Below, in pieces: positions 15,385 through 31,063 of a stretch of DNA of 32,273 nucleotides. Below the pieces are notes generated by a model that worked only from the letters and a program-made list of their open reading frames with translations, was not told the DNA's origin and searched no databases. This DNA is from Azospirillum sp. B506 (GTDB lineage Bacteria > Pseudomonadota > Alphaproteobacteria > Azospirillales > Azospirillaceae). Positions within the stretch are counted from its first letter, which is position 1, and each line of letters opens with the position of its first letter. Location of the stretch: assembly GCF_000333595.1 (NCBI RefSeq), contig NZ_BADK01000088.1:1-32273 (forward strand), read 5' to 3'. Both the position numbers and the translations under genes were made by a program.

Positions 15385-15422
15385 TTGACAAGCTTGACGC
15401 GGCGCTATGACGCTCGGATCAT
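15385..15422 (+). promoter_or_regulatory. Candidate promoter with tandem CTTGAC motif before hybrid kinase
   Basis: TTGACA (15385-15390) is a perfect -35 followed after 15 nt by TATGAC (15406-15411). TTGACG (15394-15399) is followed after 17 nt by GATCAT (15417-15422). The two -35-like boxes are a 9-bp direct repeat (CTTGACAAG CTTGACGCG). If either is used, transcription starts after ATG 15407, so the kinase would begin at a later codon such as ATG 15512. Confidence 0.45.
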
Positions 15423-17773
15423 GCCGGTCGATTGTTGCGTCACTAAACCATAGGCTGGCTTTGATCTCTCCCGAAAGGACCGCGCAGCCGGCCGGTGGCC
15501 CTGCTGGCGGCATGCTGCCGCCGGGCCGGCATTGGCTGGCGAATCTGCGCGCCAGCCGGCCCTTGCGCGTCCTGTTGCTGATCGGCGGGCTGTCGGTCGC
15601 CGTGCTGCTGGCGGCGACGCTCCATTACATCGACAGCATGCGCGAGCGCGAACTGGAAGGGGCGGAGCGCGAGCTGTCCACCCTGAACCTGTCGCTGGCG
15701 GAGCAGACCGCCAGCGCGACGCAGAGCGTCGATCTGGTGCTGACCACCATCATCGATCAGCTGAAGTCGGACGGAATCGACACGCCCGAGGAGTATGTCC
15801 GCCGGATGGGCGGGCGCGACACCTACCAGATGCTGCGGGCGCGGATCACCGGCCTGCCGCAGCTGGACGCGGTGACGATGATCGCGGCCGACGGACACCT
15901 GATCAACTTCTCGCGCTATTACCCGATCCCGCCGGTCAATGTGTCCGACCGGGATTACTTCGCCTACCTGCGCGACCACGACACGGCGGACCCCTTCATC
16001 AGCGAGCCGGTGCAGAATCGCGGCAACGGCAGCTGGACCGTCTATCTGGCCCGCCGGATCAGCGGGCAGGACGGCAGCTTCGTCGGTCTGGTGCTGGGCG
16101 CCATCGAACTGAGCTATTTCCAGAGGATTTACAAGTCGCTGCAACCCGACGGCGACGGCAGCATCAGCCTGTGGCGGCGGGACGGCATCCTGCTGGCCCG
16201 CCATCCGGGGCTGCCGGACATCGGCCGGCCGCTGGGCCAGCGGCAGTTCCTGAAGGTGCTGGAGCGCGCGAGGTCGGGCGTCTTCCTCTCCGCCGGCGGG
16301 CTGAACGACGGCGTCCGTCTGGTGGCGACGCGGGCGCTGGCCGACTATCCGCTGGTCGTCAATGTGACGCGCAAGCTGGACGCGGTGTTGAACGACTGGC
16401 GCATCCAGGCCTGGACCGTTGGAGCCGCAGGCACCGTCGGCATCGCCGCGCTGCTGCTGTCGCTGTGGGCGCTGGCCCGGCAGTTCAGCGCCTACGAGGC
16501 GGCGACCCGGGCGATGGATGCTGCCCGGCAGGCTGTGGAGGGGCGGGAGCAGGCCGAACAGGCGCTGCGCCAGAGCCAGAAGATGGAGGCGATCGGCCAG
16601 CTGACCGGCGGCGTCGCCCATGACTTCAACAACCTGCTCCAGGCCATCGGCATCAACCTCCACGTCATCGACAGCCGCAGCGACGACGAGCGTATCTCCG
16701 GTCCGGCGCGGCTGGCCCTGCAGGCGGTGGAGCGGGGAGCGACGCTGACCCAGCATCTGCTGGCCTTTTCACGCCGGCAGCAGCTTCGTCCGGTTCCTGT
16801 CGATGTCGCGACGCTGGTGGAGCGCATCAGCCGCCTTCTCGGACGCACGCTGGGCCAGTCGGTGCGGATCGAGACGGAGGTGTCGCCCGGCCTGTGGCCG
16901 GCGATGATCGACCCGACCCAGCTGGAAATGGCCGTGCTGAACCTGGCGCTGAATGCCCGCGACGCCATGCCCGGCGGCGGCACGCTGTGGATCCTGGCCG
17001 GCAACCGGACCGTGGGAAACCAGATGGCTGGCACAAGCCCGCTGCCGGTGCAGGTGGAGGGGCTGGAACCCGGCGACTATGTGGTTCTGCGGGTGCGCGA
17101 CACCGGCACCGGCATGGCGGCCGATGTGGCCGCCCGCGCCTTCGAGCCCTTCTTCACCACCAAGGAGGTCGGGCGCGGCACCGGTCTCGGCCTCAGCATG
17201 GTGCATGGGCTGGCGACCCAGTCGGGCGGCGGGGTGGAACTGGACAGCCGGCTGGGCCTCGGCACCACGGTGACGCTCTATCTGCCGCGCGCCCGTCAGG
17301 CGGCGGATGCGCCGGCCGCCCAGTCCACTCCGCCGCCTTCTCCGCCGCCCTCTCCGCCGCGGCCGAAGGGAAGGGAGGGGACGGCGGCCGGCGGGATGGG
17401 ATCCGGCTGCGCCGTCCTGCTGGTCGATGACGAGGAGCTGGTGCGCGCGGCCACCGCCGGCTATCTGGCGCAGGCCGGCTTCTCGGTCCGCGAGGCGGCC
17501 GACGCGGCGGCGGCGCTGGCCCTGCTCGATGACGGCTACCGGCCGGACGTGATCGTCACCGACCATATGATGCCGGGGATGACCGGACTCGACATGGCCC
17601 GCCTCCTGCGCGCCCGGCAGGACGGGACGCCGATCCTGATGGTTACCGGCTATGCCGAGGATCTCACCTCGACGGCTGCGGCGCAGGACGTTGCGCTGAC
17701 CGTGCTGTCCAAGCCGGTCGAACCGTCGCGGCTGGTCCGCTCCATCCGCGACATGGCGTCGGTGGAAAACTGA
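15407..17773 (+). CDS. Hybrid sensor histidine kinase with PDC-type extracytoplasmic sensor
   Basis: Domains in order: transmembrane helix (53-73); extracytoplasmic PDC/dCache-like sensor (about 80-325, with NVSDRDYFAYLRD and FISEPVQNRGNGSWTVYLAR, typical of this sensor type); transmembrane helix (about 333-356); HisKA with His405 in GGVAHDFNNLLQ; HATPase with NLALNARDAMP, DTGTGM and GRGTGLGLSMV; a Pro/Ser-rich linker; and a receiver with Asp719 (VTDHMMPG) and Lys769 (LSKPVE). The HDFNN form of the histidine box is usual in NtrB-like hybrid kinases. No cognate regulator is adjacent, so the partner is unknown. The start is uncertain: ATG 15407 sits inside a candidate promoter and lacks a ribosome binding site, while ATG 15512 (residue 36) would still keep the first helix. 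Confidence 0.92.
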   Translation: MTLGSCRSIVASLNHRLALISPERTAQPAGGPAGGMLPPGRHWLANLRASRPLRVLLLIGGLSVAVLLAATLHYIDSMRERELEGAERELSTLNLSLAEQTASATQSVDLVLTTIIDQLKSDGIDTPEEYVRRMGGRDTYQMLRARITGLPQLDAVTMIAADGHLINFSRYYPIPPVNVSDRDYFAYLRDHDTADPFISEPVQNRGNGSWTVYLARRISGQDGSFVGLVLGAIELSYFQRIYKSLQPDGDGSISLWRRDGILLARHPGLPDIGRPLGQRQFLKVLERARSGVFLSAGGLNDGVRLVATRALADYPLVVNVTRKLDAVLNDWRIQAWTVGAAGTVGIAALLLSLWALARQFSAYEAATRAMDAARQAVEGREQAEQALRQSQKMEAIGQLTGGVAHDFNNLLQAIGINLHVIDSRSDDERISGPARLALQAVERGATLTQHLLAFSRRQQLRPVPVDVATLVERISRLLGRTLGQSVRIETEVSPGLWPAMIDPTQLEMAVLNLALNARDAMPGGGTLWILAGNRTVGNQMAGTSPLPVQVEGLEPGDYVVLRVRDTGTGMAADVAARAFEPFFTTKEVGRGTGLGLSMVHGLATQSGGGVELDSRLGLGTTVTLYLPRARQAADAPAAQSTPPPSPPPSPPRPKGREGTAAGGMGSGCAVLLVDDEELVRAATAGYLAQAGFSVREAADAAAALALLDDGYRPDVIVTDHMMPGMTGLDMARLLRARQDGTPILMVTGYAEDLTSTAAAQDVALTVLSKPVEPSRLVRSIRDMASVEN

Positions 17774-21413: not shown

Positions 21414-22475
21414 TTACGCCTCGTCCGGCGTGAGCGCCGGCAGGTCGTCGATGTTGTCGCGGTGGATCCTGCACACATCGTCCCACCGTGACAGGAAGGC
21501 GTCCAGCAGGGCCGGGTCGAAATGGCGGCCGCGGTTCTCGATCATGAAGCTGCGCGCCTCCTCCGGTGTCCAGGACCGCTTGTAGGGGCGGACGGAGGTG
21601 AGGGCGTCGAACACATCGGCGATGGCGACGATGCGGCCGGGCAGCGGGATGGCGTTTCCCGCCAGACGGTTCGGATATCCGCTGCCGTCGAACTTCTCAT
21701 GGTGGCTGAGCGCGATCTCCGCCGCCAGCCGCAGAAGCGGGATGTCGCTGTTCGCCAGGATGCGGTGGCCGATGGCGGCGTGCTGGCGCATCACCGTCAT
21801 CTCCTCCGGCGTCAGGCGGCCCGCCTTCAGCAGGATCATGTCGGGGATGCCGATCTTGCCGATATCGTGCATCGGCGCTGCCTTCGTCACTTCCTGGGCG
21901 AAGGCGGCGCCGCAGCCGGCCGCTTCGGCGATCAGTTTGGAATAGAGGGCCATCCGCTCGATATGGGCGCCGGTTTCGGGATCGCGGTATTCGGCGGCGC
22001 GCGACAGGCGGGTGACCAGTTCCTCCCCCTGGCGCTGGAGGGCGGCGGTGACCCGCTCCACCTCGGCGGCCAGCAGGGCGGCGCGGTCGCGCAGCAGGGC
22101 GCGGCTCTGGCGCAGGGCCAGCAGATTGCGCAGCCGCGCCTGGACCTCCGGCACGATGATCGGCTTGGTCAGGAAATCGTTGCAGCCCTCGTCCAGCGCG
22201 CGCACGCGGATGTCGACCGCCGTGTTGGCGGTGATCATCACCACCGGCACCGTGTCCAGCCGTGCATCGTCGCGGATGCGGCGCAGCAGCTCCATGCCGT
22301 CCATCTCCGGCATCATCTGGTCCAGCAGGATCAGGTCCGGCTCGTTTCCGCGCAGCCATTCGACGGCGTCCAGCGGGTTTTCCATCGTCACCGGCTCGGC
22401 ATCGTCCAGGCGGCGGACGACGGCGGCCATGATGAACAGGTTGGTGCGGTCATCGTCGACGATGAGGATGTTCAT
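21414..22475 (-). CDS. Response regulator with HD-GYP domain (c-di-GMP phosphodiesterase)
   Basis: This 353-residue cytoplasmic protein is a two-domain response regulator. The receiver (1-120) has VDDD, the acceptor Asp in LILLDQMMPEMDG and the Lys in FLTKPI. After a coiled-coil linker (LLRDRAALLAAEVERVTAAL) comes an HD-GYP domain (about 150-340) with H-IERM, MHDIGKIGIPD, HHEKFDGSGYP and IVAIADVFDAL. All expected metal ligands of the HD and the GYP motif are present, so it should hydrolyse c-di-GMP when phosphorylated. Its ATG overlaps the stop of the upstream receiver gene by 4 nt (ATGA), so the two proteins are translationally coupled. It is the likely output of the neighbouring kinases. 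Confidence 0.94.
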   Translation of the reverse strand: MNILIVDDDRTNLFIMAAVVRRLDDAEPVTMENPLDAVEWLRGNEPDLILLDQMMPEMDGMELLRRIRDDARLDTVPVVMITANTAVDIRVRALDEGCNDFLTKPIIVPEVQARLRNLLALRQSRALLRDRAALLAAEVERVTAALQRQGEELVTRLSRAAEYRDPETGAHIERMALYSKLIAEAAGCGAAFAQEVTKAAPMHDIGKIGIPDMILLKAGRLTPEEMTVMRQHAAIGHRILANSDIPLLRLAAEIALSHHEKFDGSGYPNRLAGNAIPLPGRIVAIADVFDALTSVRPYKRSWTPEEARSFMIENRGRHFDPALLDAFLSRWDDVCRIHRDNIDDLPALTPDEA

Positions 22476-22975
22476 CCGGCGGCATCCGTCTTCCGCGCGG
22501 CGATCAGCCGGCCGGCCTCGGCCAGCAGGGCGTTCAGGTCCACCGGCTTTTCAAAGGCGGCGTCGGCACCCAGCAGGCGGGCCATCCCCGGCAGTTCCAT
22601 CCGCAGGCGCAGGCTGCCGCCGGTGACGGCGATCAGGGGCGGGCGCGACCGCTGTGCCTTCAGCCGTAGGATCACCTCGTACCCGTCAGCCTCCGGCATG
22701 ATGATGTCGGTCACCACCAGATCCACCGGATGGTTGGCCAGGATGTCCAGGGCGGCGTTTCCATTCTCCGCCTCATGTACGGTGCAGCCGGTGCGGGTGA
22801 AGGCGATGCAGACCATTCGGCGGAAATCGGGATCGTCGTCGACCAGCAGGACGGAGGCGCCTGACAGGGACTGCGTGGCGGCTGAGTGAGGGGCAGGGGT
22901 GGCCGGGGTGGTGGGGGAGGTCGGGGATGGAGCTGGGGTTGGGGCGGCCCGCAGCTCGTAAAGTGTCATTTCCAT
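22472..22975 (-). CDS. Single-domain response regulator with Pro/Thr-rich N-terminal tail
   Basis: In this 167-residue protein, residues 1-38 are a Pro/Thr/Ser-rich, probably disordered tail (APTPAPSPTSPTTPATPAP). The rest is a receiver domain with VLLVDDDPDFRR, the acceptor Asp in LVVTDIIMPEADG, Thr in AVTGG and Lys in FEKPVDL. It has no output domain, so it may shuttle phosphate, as CheY- or Spo0F-like receivers do. The start at 22975 or the in-frame ATG 22969 are both possible. The gene is divergent from the LuxR-type regulator and overlaps the HD-GYP gene. Confidence 0.9.
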   Translation of the reverse strand: MEMTLYELRAAPTPAPSPTSPTTPATPAPHSAATQSLSGASVLLVDDDPDFRRMVCIAFTRTGCTVHEAENGNAALDILANHPVDLVVTDIIMPEADGYEVILRLKAQRSRPPLIAVTGGSLRLRMELPGMARLLGADAAFEKPVDLNALLAEAGRLIAARKTDAAG

Positions 22976-23289
22976 GGTCGCCGGTCCTGTCGTCCGCCGC
23001 GAACCGGCCGGTCAGGCCGGGTGGATTTCGCTAAACCCCACCATAAACGTCCACTGTTGCGCGCACCCGCTGTGTCTGGGATAGCGGGGCCGGGAAATGG
23101 GATAGCGGGGATATTATCCCGCGCCGGGAAGGAAAGCATGTCGGACCGCCGTTGCGGACCCGGGACGGCAGGCAAATATGAACGACGTGAAATATGGTGA
23201 AGCCACGAAAACTTAAGATTTCGGTCAGCATAGAGGGGAATGTTGATACTATGGGATAGGCGGTTGCCGAGGGTGGCGGAGGCGGGTTG
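22976..23289. promoter_or_regulatory. Divergent regulatory region with four GGGATA boxes
   Basis: This gap of about 310 nt separates the two outward-facing signalling operons and contains no gene. TGGGATAGCGGGG occurs twice as an exact 13-bp direct repeat (23077-23089 and 23098-23110), 21 bp apart. GGGATA-T-TATCCC (23108-23120) is a perfect palindrome overlapping the second copy. TGGGATAGG recurs at 23252-23260, close to the LuxR-type gene. These look like binding sites of one regulator. Confidence 0.6.
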
Positions 23290-24012
23290 ATGAAGATCTT
23301 GGTGGCGGACGACCATCCCCTTTTCCGGGACGCGCTTGAACTGTCGGTCCGTCAGGCTTGGCCGGATGCGGAGATCGGTTGCATCGGTTCACTGTTGGAA
23401 TTGCCTGCCGCGTCGGTGCCGGCCGACGGTATCCCCGCCACGCTCATCCGCTACGATCTGATCGTGCTTGACTGGCGGATGCCCGGCGCCGAGGGAAGCA
23501 ATCCGATCGCCGTGCTTCGCCAGTCGGGAATCCAGGGGCCGGTCGCCGTGGTGACGGGGGCGGAGGATGCGCTGACCGCGCTGGAGGTGCTGCGGTGCGG
23601 TGCCGAAGCCTTCCTGCCGAAGACCACGCCGCGCCGCGTCCTGGCCCAGGCCCTGCGCCTCGTGGCGGAGGGCGGCAGCTTCGTGCCGAAATGCGTGGCG
23701 CTCGACCTGTTGCACATGACCGATCTGTCGCTGGACATCGACGAGGCGGACGAGGGCGACAGCCCGTCTCTGGAGGGCGAGGGGGCGCCGTCGTCGCCCC
23801 TGACCGACCGGGAACAGCAGGTTCTGTCGATGCTTGCCACCGGGGCGACCAACAAGGAGATCGGGCGGCATCTCAGCCTGCAGGAGGTGACGGTCAAGCT
23901 GCACACCCGCCGAATCCTGCGCAAGCTGGGCGCCCGGAACCGCACCGACGCGGTGCGGCGCGCCCAGCAGGCCGGCCTGTTGTCCCGCAGTCTGGACGAA
24001 GCCTCGCCCTGA
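23290..24012 (+). CDS. LuxR/NarL-type response regulator
   Basis: This 240-residue protein is a DNA-binding response regulator. The receiver (1-130) has ILVADDHPLF, the acceptor Asp in LIVLDWRMPGAEG, Thr in VVTGAED and Lys in AFLPKTTP. After an acidic linker (DIDEADEGDSPSLEGE) comes a LuxR-type helix-turn-helix (about 175-230), with LTDREQQVLSMLATGATNKE and VTVKLHTRRILRKLGARNRT. ATG 23290 is preferred to the in-frame TTG 23287 because GGAGG lies 7 nt upstream of the ATG. It opens a plus-strand set with the two kinase genes downstream, 84 nt away. Autoregulation through the GGGATA boxes upstream is plausible but unproven. Confidence 0.94.
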   Translation: MKILVADDHPLFRDALELSVRQAWPDAEIGCIGSLLELPAASVPADGIPATLIRYDLIVLDWRMPGAEGSNPIAVLRQSGIQGPVAVVTGAEDALTALEVLRCGAEAFLPKTTPRRVLAQALRLVAEGGSFVPKCVALDLLHMTDLSLDIDEADEGDSPSLEGEGAPSSPLTDREQQVLSMLATGATNKEIGRHLSLQEVTVKLHTRRILRKLGARNRTDAVRRAQQAGLLSRSLDEASP

Positions 24013-24096: not shown

Positions 24097-26031
24097 ATGG
24101 TCGCATCCTCCGGTCTTACGCCTTCGTCCAGCGCGGCAGAGACGGACGCACCCGCAACACGGCCGCAATCCGAGTCGCCGATGAGCCCATCCGACCATTC
24201 CCTCTCCGGACCGCGAGCAGGCCGCACCGCGTCGTCGGCAACCGCCGGTTCCGATGGGACCGGTTCCAGCCGGTCCGGTTCGGGCACCGGCGTGGCGATG
24301 CCCGTCGCCGCTGCGGTGGGTGGGGCGGCGGTGTTTCTTCTGTCCGCGCTCGATCCGCTGCGCGAAGCGGCGCCCTGGGCGCTTCCTCTGCTGGCAGCCG
24401 GCAGTGGCGCTTCCGCCGGTCTGGCGCTGCTGTCGGTCTGGCGTGCGGCGCGCCGGCTGGCTGGGCAGGACGGTCAACTCCGGCATCCGGCACAGCCGCC
24501 GTTGCCCCCGCCCGTCACCGACCCGGCTCAACCGGCCGCGGAGGCCATCGCCCCGGTCACACCGGTTCCGGTGAGCATCGCTGAGGAAGCCGTACGCATC
24601 GCCGCGCTGGAGGAGGCGCTGCGGCAGAAGGACCAGCAGACGGCCCAACGGCTGCGCAGCCAGCAGATCGCGGCGATGGACGCCCGCGCGGAGCTTGTCT
24701 GCGCCATTGTCCACGACATGAACAATGTGTTGGGTGCCGTCTCCGGCTATGCCGACTTCCTGGTCAGCGATCTGCCGGTCGACTCGCCCCAGGCCGACTA
24801 TGCCAACCGTACCGTCGCGGCCATCGCCCGCGCCCGCCCCGGACTCCGCCGGCTGGTGTTGGCGGCCAGGATGGAAGCCGTCGCCCTGCAGCCCGAGCGG
24901 GCGGGGAGCGTCCTGGACGAGGCGGCGACCCTGCTGCGTGCCGTTTCCGTGCCGCCGGGCAGTCTGGCCGTCCGCCACGATGCCGGCACGCCCGACGCGC
25001 TCTGCAACGCCGATCTGTTGGCGCGGACGATGGCCGGGCTGGCGGCGGAGATTCTCGCCGCCGGTGGGCGGGGTGGCGATGCCCGGCTCTCTCTGCGCGC
25101 CACCGCCTGCACACCGTCTGCGGCGGAGCAGCGCGGCTCCGATGCGGATGCCGCTGCCGCCGGCTGGACCGTTCGTCCGCTTCTGACGCCGCATCCTGGG
25201 CCTCACACCCTGTTCGAGCTGCGGATCGACGGTGCGCCGCTGGCCGACGATGCCTTGGCCGCCCTGGTCGATCCCCTGCTGTTCGCCCGCGCCCGCCACC
25301 GACGCGATCAGCTCGACCGGGATGAGCGTGTTCATTGGCCGGCGGCGCTGATGGCGGCGCGGCTTCATGACGGCGGCCTCAGCCTGCTGACCCATCCGGC
25401 GGAGGGAACGGCGGTGCGGCTGCATATTCCCGCCGTCCCGCTCCCGTCCCGCTCCCTGGCTGCGCCGCCGCAGGGTCCGGTGCAATCGGGGCCGATGACC
25501 GGGGCGATGTCCACCCCCATGCCGGACCCGGCGATGCGCCCGGCGGGAACTCGCCGGGTCGGGCCGGCCCACAAGGTTCTGGTGGTCGATGCCGACCCGG
25601 CGTCCGGCGACCGGTTCCAGACCGGGCTCGAAGGGCAGGGATTGGAAGTTTCGGTCTGCGACGACCTTCGTGACGCGCTGGACGTCGTCACCGACGAGCC
25701 GGGCTTCTTCGACGCGGTGGTCATCGGCCCGGGGCTGAGCGCGCTTCCGGCCGGCGTGGCGCTGGTCGGCCGCCTGAAGGCGGTGCGCTCGGACCTTCCC
25801 TGCGTGCTCTATGCGACCGCTCCCCCGGCCGGCGATGCCGCCCCGCCCCAGGACCGCGCCGATGGGCCGGCGGACCTGCTGCTGCCGCTGCCGGTCGACC
25901 TGCCGCGGCTGGCGCGCGGAGTGGCGGCCTTGGCCGCCCGCGGTTCCCGGCATGGCGATGGGGCCGGCGATGGGAATGGTGGCGGGAGCGATGTCGGGAC
26001 CGGCCCCGGACCGGGCGGAGAGCCGGGTTGA
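24097..26031 (+). CDS. Degenerate hybrid kinase: intact histidine helix, dead ATPase and dead receiver
   Basis: A 60-residue Ser/Thr/Ala-rich N-terminus precedes two hydrophobic helices (about 68-115) and a coiled coil. The dimerisation-phosphotransfer helix keeps its histidine, His206, in CAIVHDMNNVLGAVSGY. The following domain has the length and layout of a HATPase but lacks its key residues: no N-box Asn (AGLAAEIL), DGAPLAD instead of D-x-G-x-G, and no GxGLGL box (HWPAALMAARLHDGG), although the last strand GTAVRLHIP is recognisable. The C-terminal receiver-like domain has VLVVDADP, but Gly544 (VVIGPG) replaces the acceptor Asp and Leu (LPLPVDL) the conserved Lys. The make-up recalls ChpT-type phosphotransferases. 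ATG 24181 is an alternative start. It overlaps the next kinase by 1 nt. Confidence 0.82.
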   Translation: MVASSGLTPSSSAAETDAPATRPQSESPMSPSDHSLSGPRAGRTASSATAGSDGTGSSRSGSGTGVAMPVAAAVGGAAVFLLSALDPLREAAPWALPLLAAGSGASAGLALLSVWRAARRLAGQDGQLRHPAQPPLPPPVTDPAQPAAEAIAPVTPVPVSIAEEAVRIAALEEALRQKDQQTAQRLRSQQIAAMDARAELVCAIVHDMNNVLGAVSGYADFLVSDLPVDSPQADYANRTVAAIARARPGLRRLVLAARMEAVALQPERAGSVLDEAATLLRAVSVPPGSLAVRHDAGTPDALCNADLLARTMAGLAAEILAAGGRGGDARLSLRATACTPSAAEQRGSDADAAAAGWTVRPLLTPHPGPHTLFELRIDGAPLADDALAALVDPLLFARARHRRDQLDRDERVHWPAALMAARLHDGGLSLLTHPAEGTAVRLHIPAVPLPSRSLAAPPQGPVQSGPMTGAMSTPMPDPAMRPAGTRRVGPAHKVLVVDADPASGDRFQTGLEGQGLEVSVCDDLRDALDVVTDEPGFFDAVVIGPGLSALPAGVALVGRLKAVRSDLPCVLYATAPPAGDAAPPQDRADGPADLLLPLPVDLPRLARGVAALAARGSRHGDGAGDGNGGGSDVGTGPGPGGEPG

Positions 26032-29000
26032 TGGGCGGACGCCTTCACCTGCAGGGCTTCATCGCCGCAATCTGGACGGCGACCCTGGTGATCGCCGCCG
26101 GCTTGTGGGCGGCGGCCCTGTTTCTGGCCCATTACGACGATGACGAAGCGATGGCGCGGGCCGAACGCGACAGCGGCAACCTTGCCCGCGTCGTCGCCGA
26201 ACAGGCGACCCGGACCATCGCCGAGGCCGACCAGCTGCTGCTGTTCCTGATCGACGACTATCACGACCATGGCGACATATGGTCCAATGGCGTCACCCGG
26301 ATGCTGCGGCAGGCGGTGGAGCGGTCGGGCATGCTTCTCCAGCTGGCGGTCGTCGATGCGAATGGCGATCTCCTCCACACCAGCGTCGATGAAGCGCCGG
26401 TCCGCATCCATCTGGCCGATCGCGAGCATGTTCGCGTCCATGTCGACAATCCTGCGGTCGGGCTGTTCATCGGAAAGCCGGTGTTCGGCCGGGCGTCGGG
26501 CAAATGGTCGATCCAGCTGACCAGGCGCATCGACAACAGCGACGGCAGCTTTGCCGGTGTGCTGGTCGCGTCGATGGACCCGTTCTATTTCAGCCGCCTG
26601 CTGGAGGAGTTGGACGTCGGTCCCAACGGTGTGGTGGCGATCGTCGGCACGGACGGCATCCTGCGCGCCGGATCGATGATGAACGACCGCATCATCGGCC
26701 GGGACCTTGCCCAATCGCCGACGCTGGCGATGGCGCGCCGCCAGCCGACCGGTTTCATCCGCGCCGCCAGCCTGATCGACGGCATCTCGCGCCTGCAGTC
26801 CTTCCGCACACTGGCGTCCTATCCGCTGATCGTCACCGCGGCGTTCGACGAGGAGTCCTTCCTGGCCGACACCCGGAAGCGGCAGCGCGTCTATCTGTTC
26901 GCGGCGGCGGCCTGCAGCTTCGGCCTGTTCGGGCTGGCGCTGCTGGCGACGCGGCAGACGGCGCGGCTCGCGGCACTGGCGACCCAGCTGGCCCGGAGCG
27001 AGGAGCGGTTCCGCGATCAGGCGGAGACCGCGTCCGACTGGTTCTGGGAAATGGACGCCGACCTGCGCTTTTGCCATCTGGCCGGGCCGCTGGTCCCGCA
27101 CGTCGCCAACGGCACTCTGCCCCTCGGCCTGCGGCGCGAGGACGTGGCGTTGCGCGAACCGGGGGATGCCGCCAAGTGGGAGGACCATCGCCGGACCATG
27201 GAGCGGCGCGAGCCGTTCCGGAATTTCCGCTACCGGGTGATGACGGCGGCGGGCCTGCGCTATTTCAGCGTCAGCGGCCGCCCGATCTTCGACGGGAAGG
27301 GACGGTTCCACGGCTATCGCGGTTCGGCCACCGACATCACAGAGCGGGAACTGGCCGCCAACCGGCTGGCGTCCAGCGAGGCGCGCTACCGTGCCATGTT
27401 CGAGGCGGTCGGCCAGCCCATCGTCACCATCGACGAACATGGGACCGTCGATGCCTTCAACCGGGCGGCGGAGCGGCTGTTCGGTTACCGTGCGGCCGAT
27501 GTGGTGGGCGGATCGATGACCCGGCTGATGCCGAGCGCCGTCGGTGCGGTCCATGACGGCCTGCTGGCGACCTATCGCGAGAGCGACGCCTCCGTTCCGC
27601 GCTCCGAGATGCGGGAACTGATCGGTCGCCGCAGGGATGGCAGCGAGTTCCCGCTGGAGGTGACGCTGGCCGGCTGGCGCGAGGGCGACCGCCGCTATGT
27701 CACCGGCGCGCTCCGCGACGTCACCGCCCAGCGCGAGATCGAGGCGAGCCTGCGCCGCGCCAAGGAGGCGGCCGATCATGCCAACCGGGCCAAGGGCGAA
27801 TTCCTGGCGACCATGAGCCACGAAATCCGCACGCCGATGAACGGGGTGCTGGGCGCGCTGGCCCTGGTGGAGGGGCCGAACCTGGACGAGGAGCAGCGTC
27901 AGCTGCTGGATGTCGCCAACCGTTCGGGCAACGCGCTGCTGCAGATCATCGACGATATCCTCGACCTGTCCAAGCTTGAGGCCGGCAAGGCGGAGGTCGA
28001 GCCGGTGGATTTCGAATTGCGCGCCGTGTTGGGCGACTGCATCGACCTGCTGGAGCCGACCGCCTGCGGGCGCGGCCTGATCCTGACGCGGGAGGTCGAG
28101 TTCGCGGTGCCCGACCGCGTGCGCGCCGATCTGCGCCGCATCCGTCAGGTGCTGGTCAATCTGGTCGGCAACGCATTGAAATTCACCCACCGCGGCGGCG
28201 TCGCCGTGCGGGTCGGGCTGGAAGGGGCCCGGCTGGGGGCAGAGACGGAGACGGCGGCCGGCAGCACCTTCTTCCTGCGGTTCGAGGTGGCCGACACCGG
28301 GATCGGCATTCCGGAGGAGGTGCAGCCGACCCTGTTCCGGCGTTTCACCCAGGGGGACAGTTCCACCACGCGGCGCTTCGGCGGCACCGGACTCGGGCTG
28401 GCGATCAGCCGCGAGCTGGTGACGCTGATGGGCGGACGGATCGGCGTGACCAGTGCCGAGGGCAAGGGCAGCACCTTCTGGTTCACGGTCCGCTGCGAAC
28501 CTGCCGCCGATCCGGCCGCCGGCGTGCTGACCGCGCCATGCGCCCCGGAACCGCCGACGGCAGCGCGGGCCGGGTCGGCCGGCCTGAATGTGCTGGTGGC
28601 GGAGGACAATGAGATCAACCGTGACATCGTCGTCACCATGCTGCGCCGGGCCGGACATCGGGTGACCGCGGTGGAGGACGGGTTGCAGGCGGTGCGGCTG
28701 GTGGCGGAGGGCGGCTTCGACCTCGTCCTGATGGATGTTCAGATGCCGGTGATGGACGGGGTCACCGCGACGCGGCATATCCGGGCGATGCCGGGCGAAG
28801 CCTCCCGCCTGCCCATCGTCGCGCTGACCGGCAACGTCATGCCCGGCCACCGCACCGAATATCTCGCCGCCGGCATGACCGCCTATCTGACCAAGCCCAT
28901 CGTCTCGGCCGACCTGTTCGGTGTGCTGGCGACGGTGTCCGGGGCACGGACGGCCTTCCCCGACGTGGCCGGGGAATCCCCCTTCCCGGCCGGTCCCGTC

Positions 29001-29471
29001 GCAACCGGGACAGCGCCGGTGCAGGCCGGCGGTCTGCCGCAGCCGGCCGCCTCTCCGCCCTCGCCCATCGTGCCGGAGGCGGAGCCGTGGCGCGCGGCCC
29101 CGCTGCTGGATCGGGGACAGGCCGACTCCCTGCGTGCCGTGATCGGCGAGGCGACCTGGACGCGGACGGTGGCCGCCTTCCGTCAGACGGCGGCCGACAG
29201 TGTGGCCGCCATCCGCGAGGCAGCCGCGCAGGGCGGGGAGCCTGCCGCCGCACCGATGGCCCGCATTGCCCACACCCTGAAGGGAACGGCGGCCAACATC
29301 GGCGCCGTGCGCCTCAGCCGTCTGGCCGCGCTGCTGGAACAGCGTGCCCAGGATCCCGGCGGCCTGCCGGCCGGCGACCCGCTGCCCGACGCTTTGCAAA
29401 GCGCCGCCGAGGCCACCCTGGATGCGCTGTCGCCGCGCGTGCAGCCGGCGGCGGAGAACGAGACGGCCTGA
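26031..29471 (+). CDS. Tripartite hybrid sensor kinase (sensor-PAS-PAS-HisKA-HATPase-REC-Hpt)
   Basis: This 1146-residue inner-membrane kinase is of the BarA/ArcB layout. Transmembrane helices flank a PDC-like sensor (about 10-30 and 285-305). Two PAS domains follow (SEERFRDQAETASDWFWEMD and SEARYRAMFEAVGQPIVTID). The HisKA domain has His597 (ATMSHEIRTPMNG); the HATPase has VNLVGNALKFTHRG, DTGIGIP and GGTGLGLAIS; the receiver has Asp902 (LVLMDVQMPVMDG) and Lys in LTKPIV. An Hpt domain with His1081 (IAHTLKGTAAN) ends the protein. All phosphorelay residues are present, so it can in principle run His-Asp-His on its own and pass phosphate to the nearby receivers. ATG 26031 shares its A with the upstream TGA, so the two genes are coupled. 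Confidence 0.96.
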   Translation: MGGRLHLQGFIAAIWTATLVIAAGLWAAALFLAHYDDDEAMARAERDSGNLARVVAEQATRTIAEADQLLLFLIDDYHDHGDIWSNGVTRMLRQAVERSGMLLQLAVVDANGDLLHTSVDEAPVRIHLADREHVRVHVDNPAVGLFIGKPVFGRASGKWSIQLTRRIDNSDGSFAGVLVASMDPFYFSRLLEELDVGPNGVVAIVGTDGILRAGSMMNDRIIGRDLAQSPTLAMARRQPTGFIRAASLIDGISRLQSFRTLASYPLIVTAAFDEESFLADTRKRQRVYLFAAAACSFGLFGLALLATRQTARLAALATQLARSEERFRDQAETASDWFWEMDADLRFCHLAGPLVPHVANGTLPLGLRREDVALREPGDAAKWEDHRRTMERREPFRNFRYRVMTAAGLRYFSVSGRPIFDGKGRFHGYRGSATDITERELAANRLASSEARYRAMFEAVGQPIVTIDEHGTVDAFNRAAERLFGYRAADVVGGSMTRLMPSAVGAVHDGLLATYRESDASVPRSEMRELIGRRRDGSEFPLEVTLAGWREGDRRYVTGALRDVTAQREIEASLRRAKEAADHANRAKGEFLATMSHEIRTPMNGVLGALALVEGPNLDEEQRQLLDVANRSGNALLQIIDDILDLSKLEAGKAEVEPVDFELRAVLGDCIDLLEPTACGRGLILTREVEFAVPDRVRADLRRIRQVLVNLVGNALKFTHRGGVAVRVGLEGARLGAETETAAGSTFFLRFEVADTGIGIPEEVQPTLFRRFTQGDSSTTRRFGGTGLGLAISRELVTLMGGRIGVTSAEGKGSTFWFTVRCEPAADPAAGVLTAPCAPEPPTAARAGSAGLNVLVAEDNEINRDIVVTMLRRAGHRVTAVEDGLQAVRLVAEGGFDLVLMDVQMPVMDGVTATRHIRAMPGEASRLPIVALTGNVMPGHRTEYLAAGMTAYLTKPIVSADLFGVLATVSGARTAFPDVAGESPFPAGPVATGTAPVQAGGLPQPAASPPSPIVPEAEPWRAAPLLDRGQADSLRAVIGEATWTRTVAAFRQTAADSVAAIREAAAQGGEPAAAPMARIAHTLKGTAANIGAVRLSRLAALLEQRAQDPGGLPAGDPLPDALQSAAEATLDALSPRVQPAAENETA

Positions 29472-29496: not shown

Positions 29497-30237
29497 CTAA
29501 AGCCCGATGAAGGGCTGCATCAGCCGGCCCATCAGGCCGGTGAAGCGCAGCGGCGCGTCCGTCGCGATCAGGCAGATGCAGTCGCGGTGGCTGTCGGCGA
29601 TGGGCTGGTGGCTGGTCTCGCCATCGACCTCCGCCAGATCGCCGGGGCCGTATCGGCCCAGCTCGTCGGCGAAATGGCCGCTCAGCACCACGGTCAGCTC
29701 CAGCCCGCCATGGCCATGGTGGGGCAGGGCGGTGCCGGGGGCGATGCGCAGAAGCTGGGCGGCACCACCCGACGCCGTGCGCGGCAACAGCTCCACCCGG
29801 CGCACCCCGGGGGCGAGCCGCTGCCAGGACAGACCGTCCAGCGCGGGAATATAGGCGCGTAGCGGCCGGGGCAGGACAGGCACAGGGGTCGGCCCCTGGG
29901 CATTCGCCGCCGGGGTGGTTTTCGGCGTGCCGGAGTGCCGCTTCCACTGCGGCTCGACATGCAGGGCCTTGCAGGGATTGCCCGGCGCCTCCTCCCGGTC
30001 CAGCCGGTCGAGCGTGGCGGCCAGCGACAGGCTTTCCAGCGGGGCCGGCGGCAAATCCTCCAGCAAGGCGCCGCCGAGCGCCTCCACCTCCGCCAACGTG
30101 GCGCGGCAGTCGGGGCAATGGGAGAGGTGGACGGCGACGGCCAGCGACAGGCCTTCCCCCAGGCTGCCGGCGCCATAGGCAACCAGCATGGCGTCGCTGG
30201 GATGGTGGTTCGGCAGGAACAGTTGGCGGGCGGTCAT
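29497..30237 (-). CDS. chrR: ChrR-type zinc-binding anti-sigma factor
   Basis: The 246-residue partner holds the ECF sigma factor inactive until singlet oxygen or organic peroxide stress, as known for Rhodobacter ChrR. The N-terminal anti-sigma domain has His12, His37, Cys41 and Cys44 (HLSHCPDC), with the same spacing as the zinc ligands of Rhodobacter ChrR (H6, H31, C35, C38). The C-terminal cupin domain has HGHGGLE, giving the His-x-His-x3-Glu set, and a later His in ETSHQP. A longer Pro/Lys linker (KRHSGTPKTTPAANAQGP) separates the domains. Its ATG overlaps the sigma factor stop by 4 nt (ATGA), the usual arrangement for a sigma/anti-sigma pair. Confidence 0.92.
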   Translation of the reverse strand: MTARQLFLPNHHPSDAMLVAYGAGSLGEGLSLAVAVHLSHCPDCRATLAEVEALGGALLEDLPPAPLESLSLAATLDRLDREEAPGNPCKALHVEPQWKRHSGTPKTTPAANAQGPTPVPVLPRPLRAYIPALDGLSWQRLAPGVRRVELLPRTASGGAAQLLRIAPGTALPHHGHGGLELTVVLSGHFADELGRYGPGDLAEVDGETSHQPIADSHRDCICLIATDAPLRFTGLMGRLMQPFIGL

Positions 30238-30884
30238 CGGTCGTCGTCTCCCAACGCCTTGCGGATCTTGGCCATGGCCAGACGCAGGCGCGATTTCACG
30301 GTGCCCAGCGGCAGGTCCAGCCGTTCGGCGATGGCCGGATGGGCGAGGTCGGCGAAGAAGGACAGCCGCACCACCTCCGCCTGTTCCGGCGTCAGCGCGG
30401 CCAGCGCGCCGCGCAGGCGGCGGGCGCGGCGGTCGCCGTCCAGCAGTTCGTCGGCGGGGGGCCGGTCGTCCTCATGCTCCAGCAGCTCGTCGTCCGACAC
30501 CTCCGGATGGCGTTCGCGGCGCAGCGCGTCGATGCGCAGGTTGCGGGCGATGGTGAAGACCCAGGTCGCCGCCTCCGCCTTCGCCGGATCGTAGAGCGAT
30601 GCCTTGCGCCACACCGACAGCAGGGTGTCCTGCGCCAGATCCTCCGCCCGCTGGGCCGGCATGCCGAGCTTCAGCATGTAGGCCTTCACCCGCGGGGCGA
30701 AATGGGCGAACAGCCGGGCGAAGGCCTGCCGGTCGCCCGCAGCCACCGCGACGAGGTCGGCGGACTGCCGTGCGGCAGCCGGGTCGGCGCAGACGCGGGG
30801 CGCCTGTCCGGTCCCGGGCTGCCCGGTTCCTGTCCGGTCCGGTCCGGCGGCATGCGTCAGAAGAGTGGCCAGGGGGGCGATCAT
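30234..30884 (-). CDS. rpoE: ECF sigma factor RpoE (ChrR-associated type)
   Basis: This 216-residue ECF sigma factor has region 2 in FAHFAPRVKAYMLKLGMPAQ through AATWVFTIARNLRIDALRRE, where the -10 binding part lies, and region 4 in LTPEQAEVVRLSFFADLAHP and LDLPLGTVKSRLRLAMAKI, the -35 binding helix-turn-helix. It is paired with ChrR, with which it overlaps. The frame is open to 31043, but ATG 30884 is chosen because a promoter of the type this sigma factor should recognise ends 6 nt upstream, so the mRNA probably starts at the ATG; no ribosome binding site exists. The N-terminal residues (IAPLATLLTHAAGPDRTGTG) are not conserved-looking, so a later start is possible. Confidence 0.93.
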   Translation of the reverse strand: MIAPLATLLTHAAGPDRTGTGQPGTGQAPRVCADPAAARQSADLVAVAAGDRQAFARLFAHFAPRVKAYMLKLGMPAQRAEDLAQDTLLSVWRKASLYDPAKAEAATWVFTIARNLRIDALRRERHPEVSDDELLEHEDDRPPADELLDGDRRARRLRGALAALTPEQAEVVRLSFFADLAHPAIAERLDLPLGTVKSRLRLAMAKIRKALGDDDR

Positions 30885-30890
30885 GCTGGA

Positions 30891-30918
30891 GTTACGCCGA
30901 CGCCCGCGCTTCGGATCA
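30891..30918 (-). promoter_or_regulatory. Candidate RpoE autoregulated promoter (TGATCC-N16-CGTAAC)
   Basis: On the minus strand TGATCC (30918-30913) is followed after 16 nt by CGTAAC (30896-30891), then TCCAGC and the ATG of the sigma gene. The same pattern occurs divergently at 31036-31063. TGATCC and a CGTA-type -10 match my recollection of ChrR-linked ECF promoters. Confidence 0.7.
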
Positions 30919-30932
30919 CCATCCGCCCCAGT

Positions 30933-30959
30933 CTTTTTGACCCGGCCTTTTTGACCCGG
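30933..30959. repeat. Two tandem CTTTTTGACCCGG copies upstream of the rpoE promoter
   Basis: Exact 13-bp copies lie at 30933-30945 and 30947-30959 (14-bp period), followed by a partial third, CTTTTCACC, from 30961. Read on the minus strand they form GTCAAAAAG-rich units 15-40 nt upstream of the -35 box. They could be an A-rich upstream element or a regulator site. Confidence 0.7.
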
Positions 30960-31035
30960 TCTTTTCACCGCTGTCTTCCGGTGAGGCAGGCTTTCATCCC
31001 GGCGGCCGGCCGGACAGAAAGCGCGAGCGTCGCGA

Positions 31036-31063
31036 TGATCCATCCACCCCCCGTCTCCGTATC
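31036..31063 (+). promoter_or_regulatory. Candidate RpoE promoter for FAD oxidoreductase (TGATCC-N16-CGTATC)
   Basis: TGATCC (31036-31041) is followed after 16 nt by CGTATC (31058-31063). The oxidoreductase starts at 31141 with its own ribosome binding site, leaving a leader of about 70 nt. Spacing and both boxes match the divergent sigma promoter. Confidence 0.68.

Follow-up and report, generated by a model that had tools for sequence, protein, structure and literature searches.

What does a histidine kinase do once it has lost both the means of using ATP and the acceptor aspartate of its receiver? The question is raised by a 644-amino-acid protein, here called pHK (pseudokinase-pseudoreceiver), that is encoded on the + strand at 24097..26031 of a 32,273-nucleotide stretch of Azospirillum sp. 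B506 DNA (contig NZ_BADK01000088.1), the whole of which we call the window. The source assembly (G000) comprises 7.24 Mb over 1142 contigs. A preliminary description, made from the letters of the window alone, had placed the frame at exactly these coordinates and likened its product to ChpT-type phosphotransferases, suggesting a scaffold, an inhibitor or a phosphotransfer hub for the kinase encoded directly downstream. The answer we favor, with a probability of about 0.5, is that pHK would serve as a membrane-tethered module that docks a response regulator (RR) and moves phosphate through its histidine, His206, with the protein PhyT as working model.

Loss of catalytic residues around a conserved histidine

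A Kyte-Doolittle scan of pHK predicts a membrane hairpin at residues 63–86 and 96–114 (24283..24438). Next in the protein come a HisKA-type DHp domain (residues 185–262, 24649..24882), a degenerate ATPase (CA) domain (residues 263–448, 24883..25440), and a pseudoreceiver (residues 489–612, 25561..25932). The phospho-acceptor position is occupied by His206 (codon 24712..24714) within the motif VHDMNN. At the N-box positions of the CA domain the window protein carries G314 and E318, its G1 stretch reads I377-D-G-A-P381, with the Asp and the second Gly gone, and no GxGLGL box is visible in its sequence. In the pseudoreceiver, G544 replaces the acceptor Asp and L598 the Lys. What the preliminary description stated about these residues is correct. 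In Pfam scans HisKA reaches 17.2–18.9 bits and Response_reg 18.4 bits, below their Pfam cut-offs of 26.9 and 30.2, and neither HATPase_c nor Hpt matches at E ≤ 1. The start codon is perhaps a different one, as annotation has the A. lipoferum 4B protein start with MSPSDHSL, corresponding to window residue 29; with the alternative ATG at 24181, His206 becomes His178.

Conservation was analyzed in 22 intact orthologues (the window and loci L039–L059, all drawn from the one genus; a split copy in genome G003 was left out), aligned with 18 active relatives taken from the fetched loci rather than from all matches. H206, D207, N209, N210, L212, G217, F221, L222, and D225 are kept in 22/22, and at the residue preceding the histidine every one of them has Val in place of Ala. 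Conversely, N314, N318, D377, and G381 of the active relatives are lost from all 22. In the receiver, Gly has replaced the acceptor Asp in every one of these proteins, and the Lys survives in two. No intact orthologue has normal ATP-binding boxes and none has lost His206, the two findings by which the preliminary description would have been refuted. Within the DHp-CA regions HisKA is matched in 22/22 and HATPase_c in only one, at E 0.062. N-terminal hydrophobic segments, in line with the membrane anchor claimed earlier and likewise predicted by Kyte-Doolittle, occur in all 22, two in 15 proteins and one in seven. The A. lipoferum 4B orthologue (L100), fetched separately and read by eye, concurs. 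The features of pHK are thus not peculiar to one genome.

Selection on these proteins was estimated from ratios of non-synonymous to synonymous substitution (dN/dS) in eight pHK pairs and in one pair of active paralogues. The core (residues 185–612) yields 0.23–0.47, against 0.35 for the active pair, which indicates purifying selection and is not the picture of a decaying pseudogene. By region, the DHp gives 0.13–0.31 (active pair 0.35), the CA domain 0.20–0.71 (0.41), and the N-terminal region 0.26–0.78 (0.57), and the linker 0.40–1.08 in the four of eight pairs with enough length. For the receiver, values of 0.07–0.34 compare with 0.15 in the active pair, seven of the eight pHK pairs being higher; the dead receiver is therefore under constraint, but in most pairs less so than a live one. 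It has the fold of a receiver without the acceptor Asp, receiver folds being among the top Foldseek matches to its models (E down to 6e-6). Two AlphaFold runs with eight sequences each gave mean pLDDT values of 60.6 and 59.0, and these weak, shallow models, including a DHp-CA model at 59, support receiver and kinase-like folds only.

Four plasmid records label the gene product as hypothetical protein (two), two-component hybrid sensor and regulator (one), or response regulator transcription factor (one), so that annotation overlooks the class to which pHK belongs. Literature searches found no description of pHK; passages of an Azospirillum two-component survey mention no pseudokinase, and the word “degenerate” is absent from it (PMC4618731).

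Probable descent from a kinase-regulator pair

The pHK gene is the middle one of three on the + strand. It is preceded by a gene that the preliminary description did not mention, encoding a NarL/LuxR-type RR with REC-GerE architecture (23287..24012; Response_reg 52.4 bits, GerE 70.9 bits), whose acceptor Asp and Lys are intact in an alignment read by eye. It is followed by a tripartite kinase with dCache-PAS-HisKA-HATPase_c-REC-Hpt architecture (26031..29471), whose catalytic boxes are present, in agreement with its earlier designation as active. The overlap noted between pHK and the kinase gene amounts to a single shared base (TGATG), provided that the ATG at 26031 is used; a TTG at 26028 is another candidate start. 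In the 23 loci read (the window and 22 others) the order RR-pHK-kinase is invariant.

With presence of pHK scored on no more than 15 first-look candidates per genome, and that of the RR on no more than 62, pHK occurs in at least 23 of the 45 genus genomes searched, one copy being split. An RR orthologue with at least 72% identity was found in the same 23, as was a tripartite-kinase orthologue with at least 56% identity over the N-terminal 324 residues. Tripartite-kinase homologues at other loci reach up to 54%, a narrow gap, so that orthology of the kinases within the trios rests on locus. At nine such other places (L073–L079, L081, L082) an HD-GYP gene lies directly beside the kinase in six, and pHK adjoins it in none. 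Judged by its neighborhoods, the tripartite kinase has a different history from the pHK/RR pair.

The closest complete relatives of pHK among the matches listed, at no more than about 34% identity, are active hybrid kinases of 926–976 amino acids with their catalytic residues present. In three Azospirillum genomes (L061–L063) such a relative lies directly after a paralogue of the trio RR (52–60% identical to it), while in genera of the family beyond Azospirillum (L064, L084–L090) a single-domain receiver gene stands between the RR and the active hybrid kinase that follows. The RR paralogue at L080 (5071-5913, G022) has no recognized hybrid-kinase homologue within the 13.5 kb fetched, and the locus of another, L091, is cut off by a contig start. 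As active relatives follow paralogous regulators, the RR is likely the inherited partner of pHK, and the two genes most likely descend from one kinase-regulator pair. The linkage to an active tripartite kinase noted earlier is constant; the upstream RR, rather than that kinase alone, is the likelier direct target, since it is a paralogue of this RR that the active relatives adjoin, and we propose it as the direct partner.

The copy in genome G003 (L060, 6037-7619) appears to be an intermediate in this descent. It lacks the acceptor Asp and the Lys of the receiver, while DSGQG, GEGLGL, and one N-box Asn are still present, and its second piece matches HATPase_c with 51.9 bits; the copy is spread over two frames, the frame change being either real or an assembly error. 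In trees of the DHp and of the CA-REC part, the 22 pHK group together (support 0.982 and 0.998) and are joined with the G003 copy at 0.998 in both, the latter branching below them in each case. Loss of the ATPase boxes is therefore derived, and, as this copy combines a dead receiver with retained G boxes, loss of the receiver probably preceded that of the ATPase. The pairing of lost residues with a kept histidine, which the preliminary description proposed to examine, holds for all 22 intact orthologues and does not extend to the basal G003 copy, which retains G1, G2, and one N-box Asn. Support for a grouping of pHK and G003 with the active kinases of L061–L063 is only 0.053 (DHp) and 0.808 (CA-REC), so that these kinases are no more than candidates for the exact active sister.

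A separate observation concerns L070 (4236-6410, G052), left out of the active relatives because it has no CA domain. It encodes 724 amino acids with HisKA and a receiver above the Pfam cut-off and no ATPase domain match, and the frame of an RR homologue with 36% identity overlaps it; the closest relative found (G143) is an 801-amino-acid open frame. It is possibly an independent phosphotransfer protein lacking a CA domain.

Proposed phosphotransfer through His206 and its rivals

How might the dead kinase serve the regulator? In the scenario we favor, the ancestral hybrid kinase would have served the adjacent NarL-type RR and lost its receiver and later its ATPase, while the DHp face with His206, Asp207, and Asn210, which meet the RR, would have been retained throughout. 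pHK would now be independent of ATP, dock the RR, and transfer phosphoryl groups to or from it via His206, as PhyT does with PhyR, with dephosphorylation of the RR as an additional or alternative activity. The phosphoryl source would be the adjacent tripartite kinase, either from its REC or, through the RR, from its Hpt, and the dead receiver would act as a structural or regulatory lid. A single-domain receiver encoded divergently upstream (22472..22975, - strand; Response_reg 74.5 bits) may be a second source; it is present in 21 of the 22 fetched trio loci, the remaining locus stopping near a contig end, and could be a phosphodonor or a competitor.

Docking is suggested by the pattern of conservation between pHK and the active kinases of L061–L063. 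Among four segments, mean identity is 0.66 in DHp helix 1, 0.32 in helix 2, 0.26 in CA, and 0.40 in REC. The side of an RR that meets a DHp includes its beta1-alpha1 part, and here the window RR and the regulators of L061–L063 are identical at 21–22 of 26 positions, compared with 49–54 of 96 in the rest of the receiver. Such conservation of both surfaces would be expected if pHK gave up ATP use but went on docking the RR. Phosphotransfer and the phosphatase activity of HisKA proteins both make use of the histidine, the Asp that follows it, and the Asn at +4. Phosphotransfer is favored by two loci, L055 (2858-6538, G035) and L057 (7031-10132, G027), in which the tripartite kinase stops after its receiver without an Hpt, as judged by alignment and Pfam. 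An Hpt was matched in all three other orthologues scanned with Pfam, and no H-x-LKG motif was found downstream of the two truncated kinases in any of six frames. Both genomes keep the REC Asp of the kinase and the His of pHK, making pHK the best local candidate for a carrier of phosphate from REC to RR.

Several observations weigh against this reading. The H-box is kept in all 18 active relatives too, so that part of the retention of the pHK motif reflects shared ancestry. DHp helix 1 also holds the dimer interface, and in the more distant RR-kinase pair of L064 the beta1-alpha1 match falls to 15 of 26. G035 and G027 are sisters in the pHK trees, reducing the loss of Hpt to one event, and in the 21 of 23 trios whose tripartite kinase has its Hpt, that domain could feed the RR without pHK; here pHK may act as a brake or a store, or offer a second route.

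From these last points arises the strongest rival, in which pHK is a brake only, dephosphorylating or holding an RR charged by the Hpt of the tripartite kinase, with no forward relay. The presence of an Hpt in nearly all trios suits it, as does D207-x-x-N210, the HisKA phosphatase motif, kept in 22/22, and a bifunctional kinase could lose ATP use and still retain its phosphatase half. A review describes the histidine as contributing to HisKA phosphatase activity without being essential to it (PMC12632262). We consider a pure brake about half as probable as the RR-docking module. The strict retention of His exceeds the need of a phosphatase. The Hpt-less lineage fits it poorly, and the precedent of PhyT also speaks against it: the protein was originally named PhyP, as a phosphatase, and passages on it report that no phosphatase activity was detected (PMC5898713).

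In a second rival, which we judge unlikely, pHK would pair with the tripartite or another kinase and tune it, His206 being structural. The constant gene order with the kinase and the one-base overlap would be expected, a constrained pseudoreceiver is compatible with it, and the pseudokinase ChrS, which forms heterodimers with HrrS, offers a precedent (PMC9491836). At L044 (6069-11252, G038) pHK and the tripartite kinase form one open frame of 1727 amino acids, which would speak for such pairing if it is a real fusion; it may instead be a sequencing or assembly effect. The H-box of the tripartite kinase differs (SHEIRTP), making DHp heterodimers improbable, and if His206 were purely structural, joint retention of His, Asp, and Asn would not be expected.

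Far less probable still is that the degenerate ATPase binds ATP or acts in a non-canonical way, leaving a weakly active kinase: some kinases with poor boxes do stay active, but every intact pHK orthologue has lost the two N-box Asn along with the Asp and the second Gly of G1, and only one of the 22 matches HATPase_c, at E 0.062. The least credible reading, a decaying pseudogene being lost, would account for two domains without catalytic residues, the split G003 copy, and the upper dN/dS values of the linker and N-terminal region, but is contradicted by core ratios close to that of the active pair, a frame intact in 22 of 23 gene-bearing genomes, and the uniform Gly544.

Comparison with known systems

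Returning to the proposed RR-docking module, its closest counterpart in make-up is PhyT of the Sphingomonas melonis general stress response, a membrane-anchored protein with a degenerate ATPase that transfers phosphate in a His341-dependent manner, tethers its RR to the membrane, and hands it phosphate from an upstream receiver (PMC5898713). pHK shares with it the anchor (predicted in pHK), the degenerate ATPase, a phospho-acceptor His in the DHp, and a gene at an RR locus. Passages on PhyT name no dead receiver, and its partner PhyR is an anti-sigma-factor antagonist (PMC5898713). In contrast, pHK has a NarL-type RR, an adjacent tripartite kinase, and HisKA (VHDxNN) rather than an HWE/HisKA_2 domain of the HRxxN type; HisKA_2 matches none of the 22 DHp-CA regions at E ≤ 0.1.

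ChpT is not known to have a membrane anchor or a receiver. It is the histidine phosphotransferase of Caulobacter, does not autophosphorylate with ATP, and resembles pHK in combining a helical hairpin that carries a phosphate-shuttling His with an ATPase-like domain (PMC3433190). The earlier comparison with ChpT stands with respect to this make-up and finds no support as a statement of family. ChpT belongs to PF10090 (HPTransfase), which matches neither the window protein at E ≤ 1 nor any of the 22 DHp-CA regions at E ≤ 0.1, and a whole-genome search at E ≤ 0.001 found PF10090 at four places, none in the window, the best on contig C114 of the assembly with 92.8 bits. The closest relative of the DHp-CA sequence in the PDB is 5idj (E 7.8e-12), listed as a histidine kinase, which we take to be CckA; 5idm, listed as CckA, follows at E 0.076, and ChpT is not among the matches at E ≤ 10. 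Foldseek with the low-confidence DHp-CA model (pLDDT 59) ranks ZraS first (E 1.4e-5) and ChpT (4fmt_B) 18th (E 0.081). Descent from ChpT was rejected on the absence of a PF10090 match, the 5idj hit, and the strong PF10090 match elsewhere in the genome. By these comparisons pHK resembles PhyT more than ChpT in make-up and is neither by descent.

CckA-like hybrid kinases with an AHDFNN motif have the same DHp-CA-REC order, both CA and REC being dead in pHK. The ABL domain of RcsD is receiver-like, and RcsB is of the NarL type. Working between the hybrid kinase RcsC and RcsB in the Rcs phosphorelay, RcsD has two membrane helices and, besides ABL, a kinase domain that is inactive; as with pHK, an active hybrid kinase stands next to it (PMC13317618). 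It differs in transferring via a C-terminal Hpt, whereas pHK has no Hpt match and keeps its DHp His. DivL, which has lost its His and carries Tyr instead, is the mirror image of pHK, where it is the ATPase that has gone and the His that remains. DivL is described as a pseudokinase, a repurposed alphaproteobacterial histidine kinase (PMC4211667).

The conversion of a kinase into a phosphotransferase or a brake has mostly been inferred from end states such as ChpT and Spo0B. Here a single genus contains relatives that are still active, a copy that seems to stand half-way, and the end state in which both domains are dead, all behind the same regulator gene, so that one can test in which order the losses came and how a new role was gained. 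More tentatively, and with well under even odds, a doubly killed hybrid kinase, bereft of its receiver and then of its ATPase, may have become a membrane-tethered DHp phosphotransferase that supplies a NarL-type RR from a neighboring tripartite kinase, or drains it, and replaces a lost Hpt in one lineage. This would be a further independent route beside those of ChpT, Spo0B, and PhyT, with its intermediate surviving in the genus.

The surroundings of the trio contain further genes. Behind the single-domain receiver lies a REC-HD-GYP regulator, identified by domain scan (21414..22475, - strand); its homologues adjoin tripartite-kinase homologues at other places. An IS630-like element (ISAli3; L100, 3537-4603) separates the single-domain receiver from the trio RR gene on plasmid AZO_p4 of A. 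lipoferum 4B. Downstream of the tripartite kinase, 29497-31043 on the - strand holds two open frames, and the B510 annotation at the matching place gives a cupin-domain protein and a sigma-70 family factor. Farther upstream, a 788-amino-acid open frame (15407-17773, + strand) includes a portion, 15566-16456, that shares 32% identity with the tripartite kinase's sensor region.
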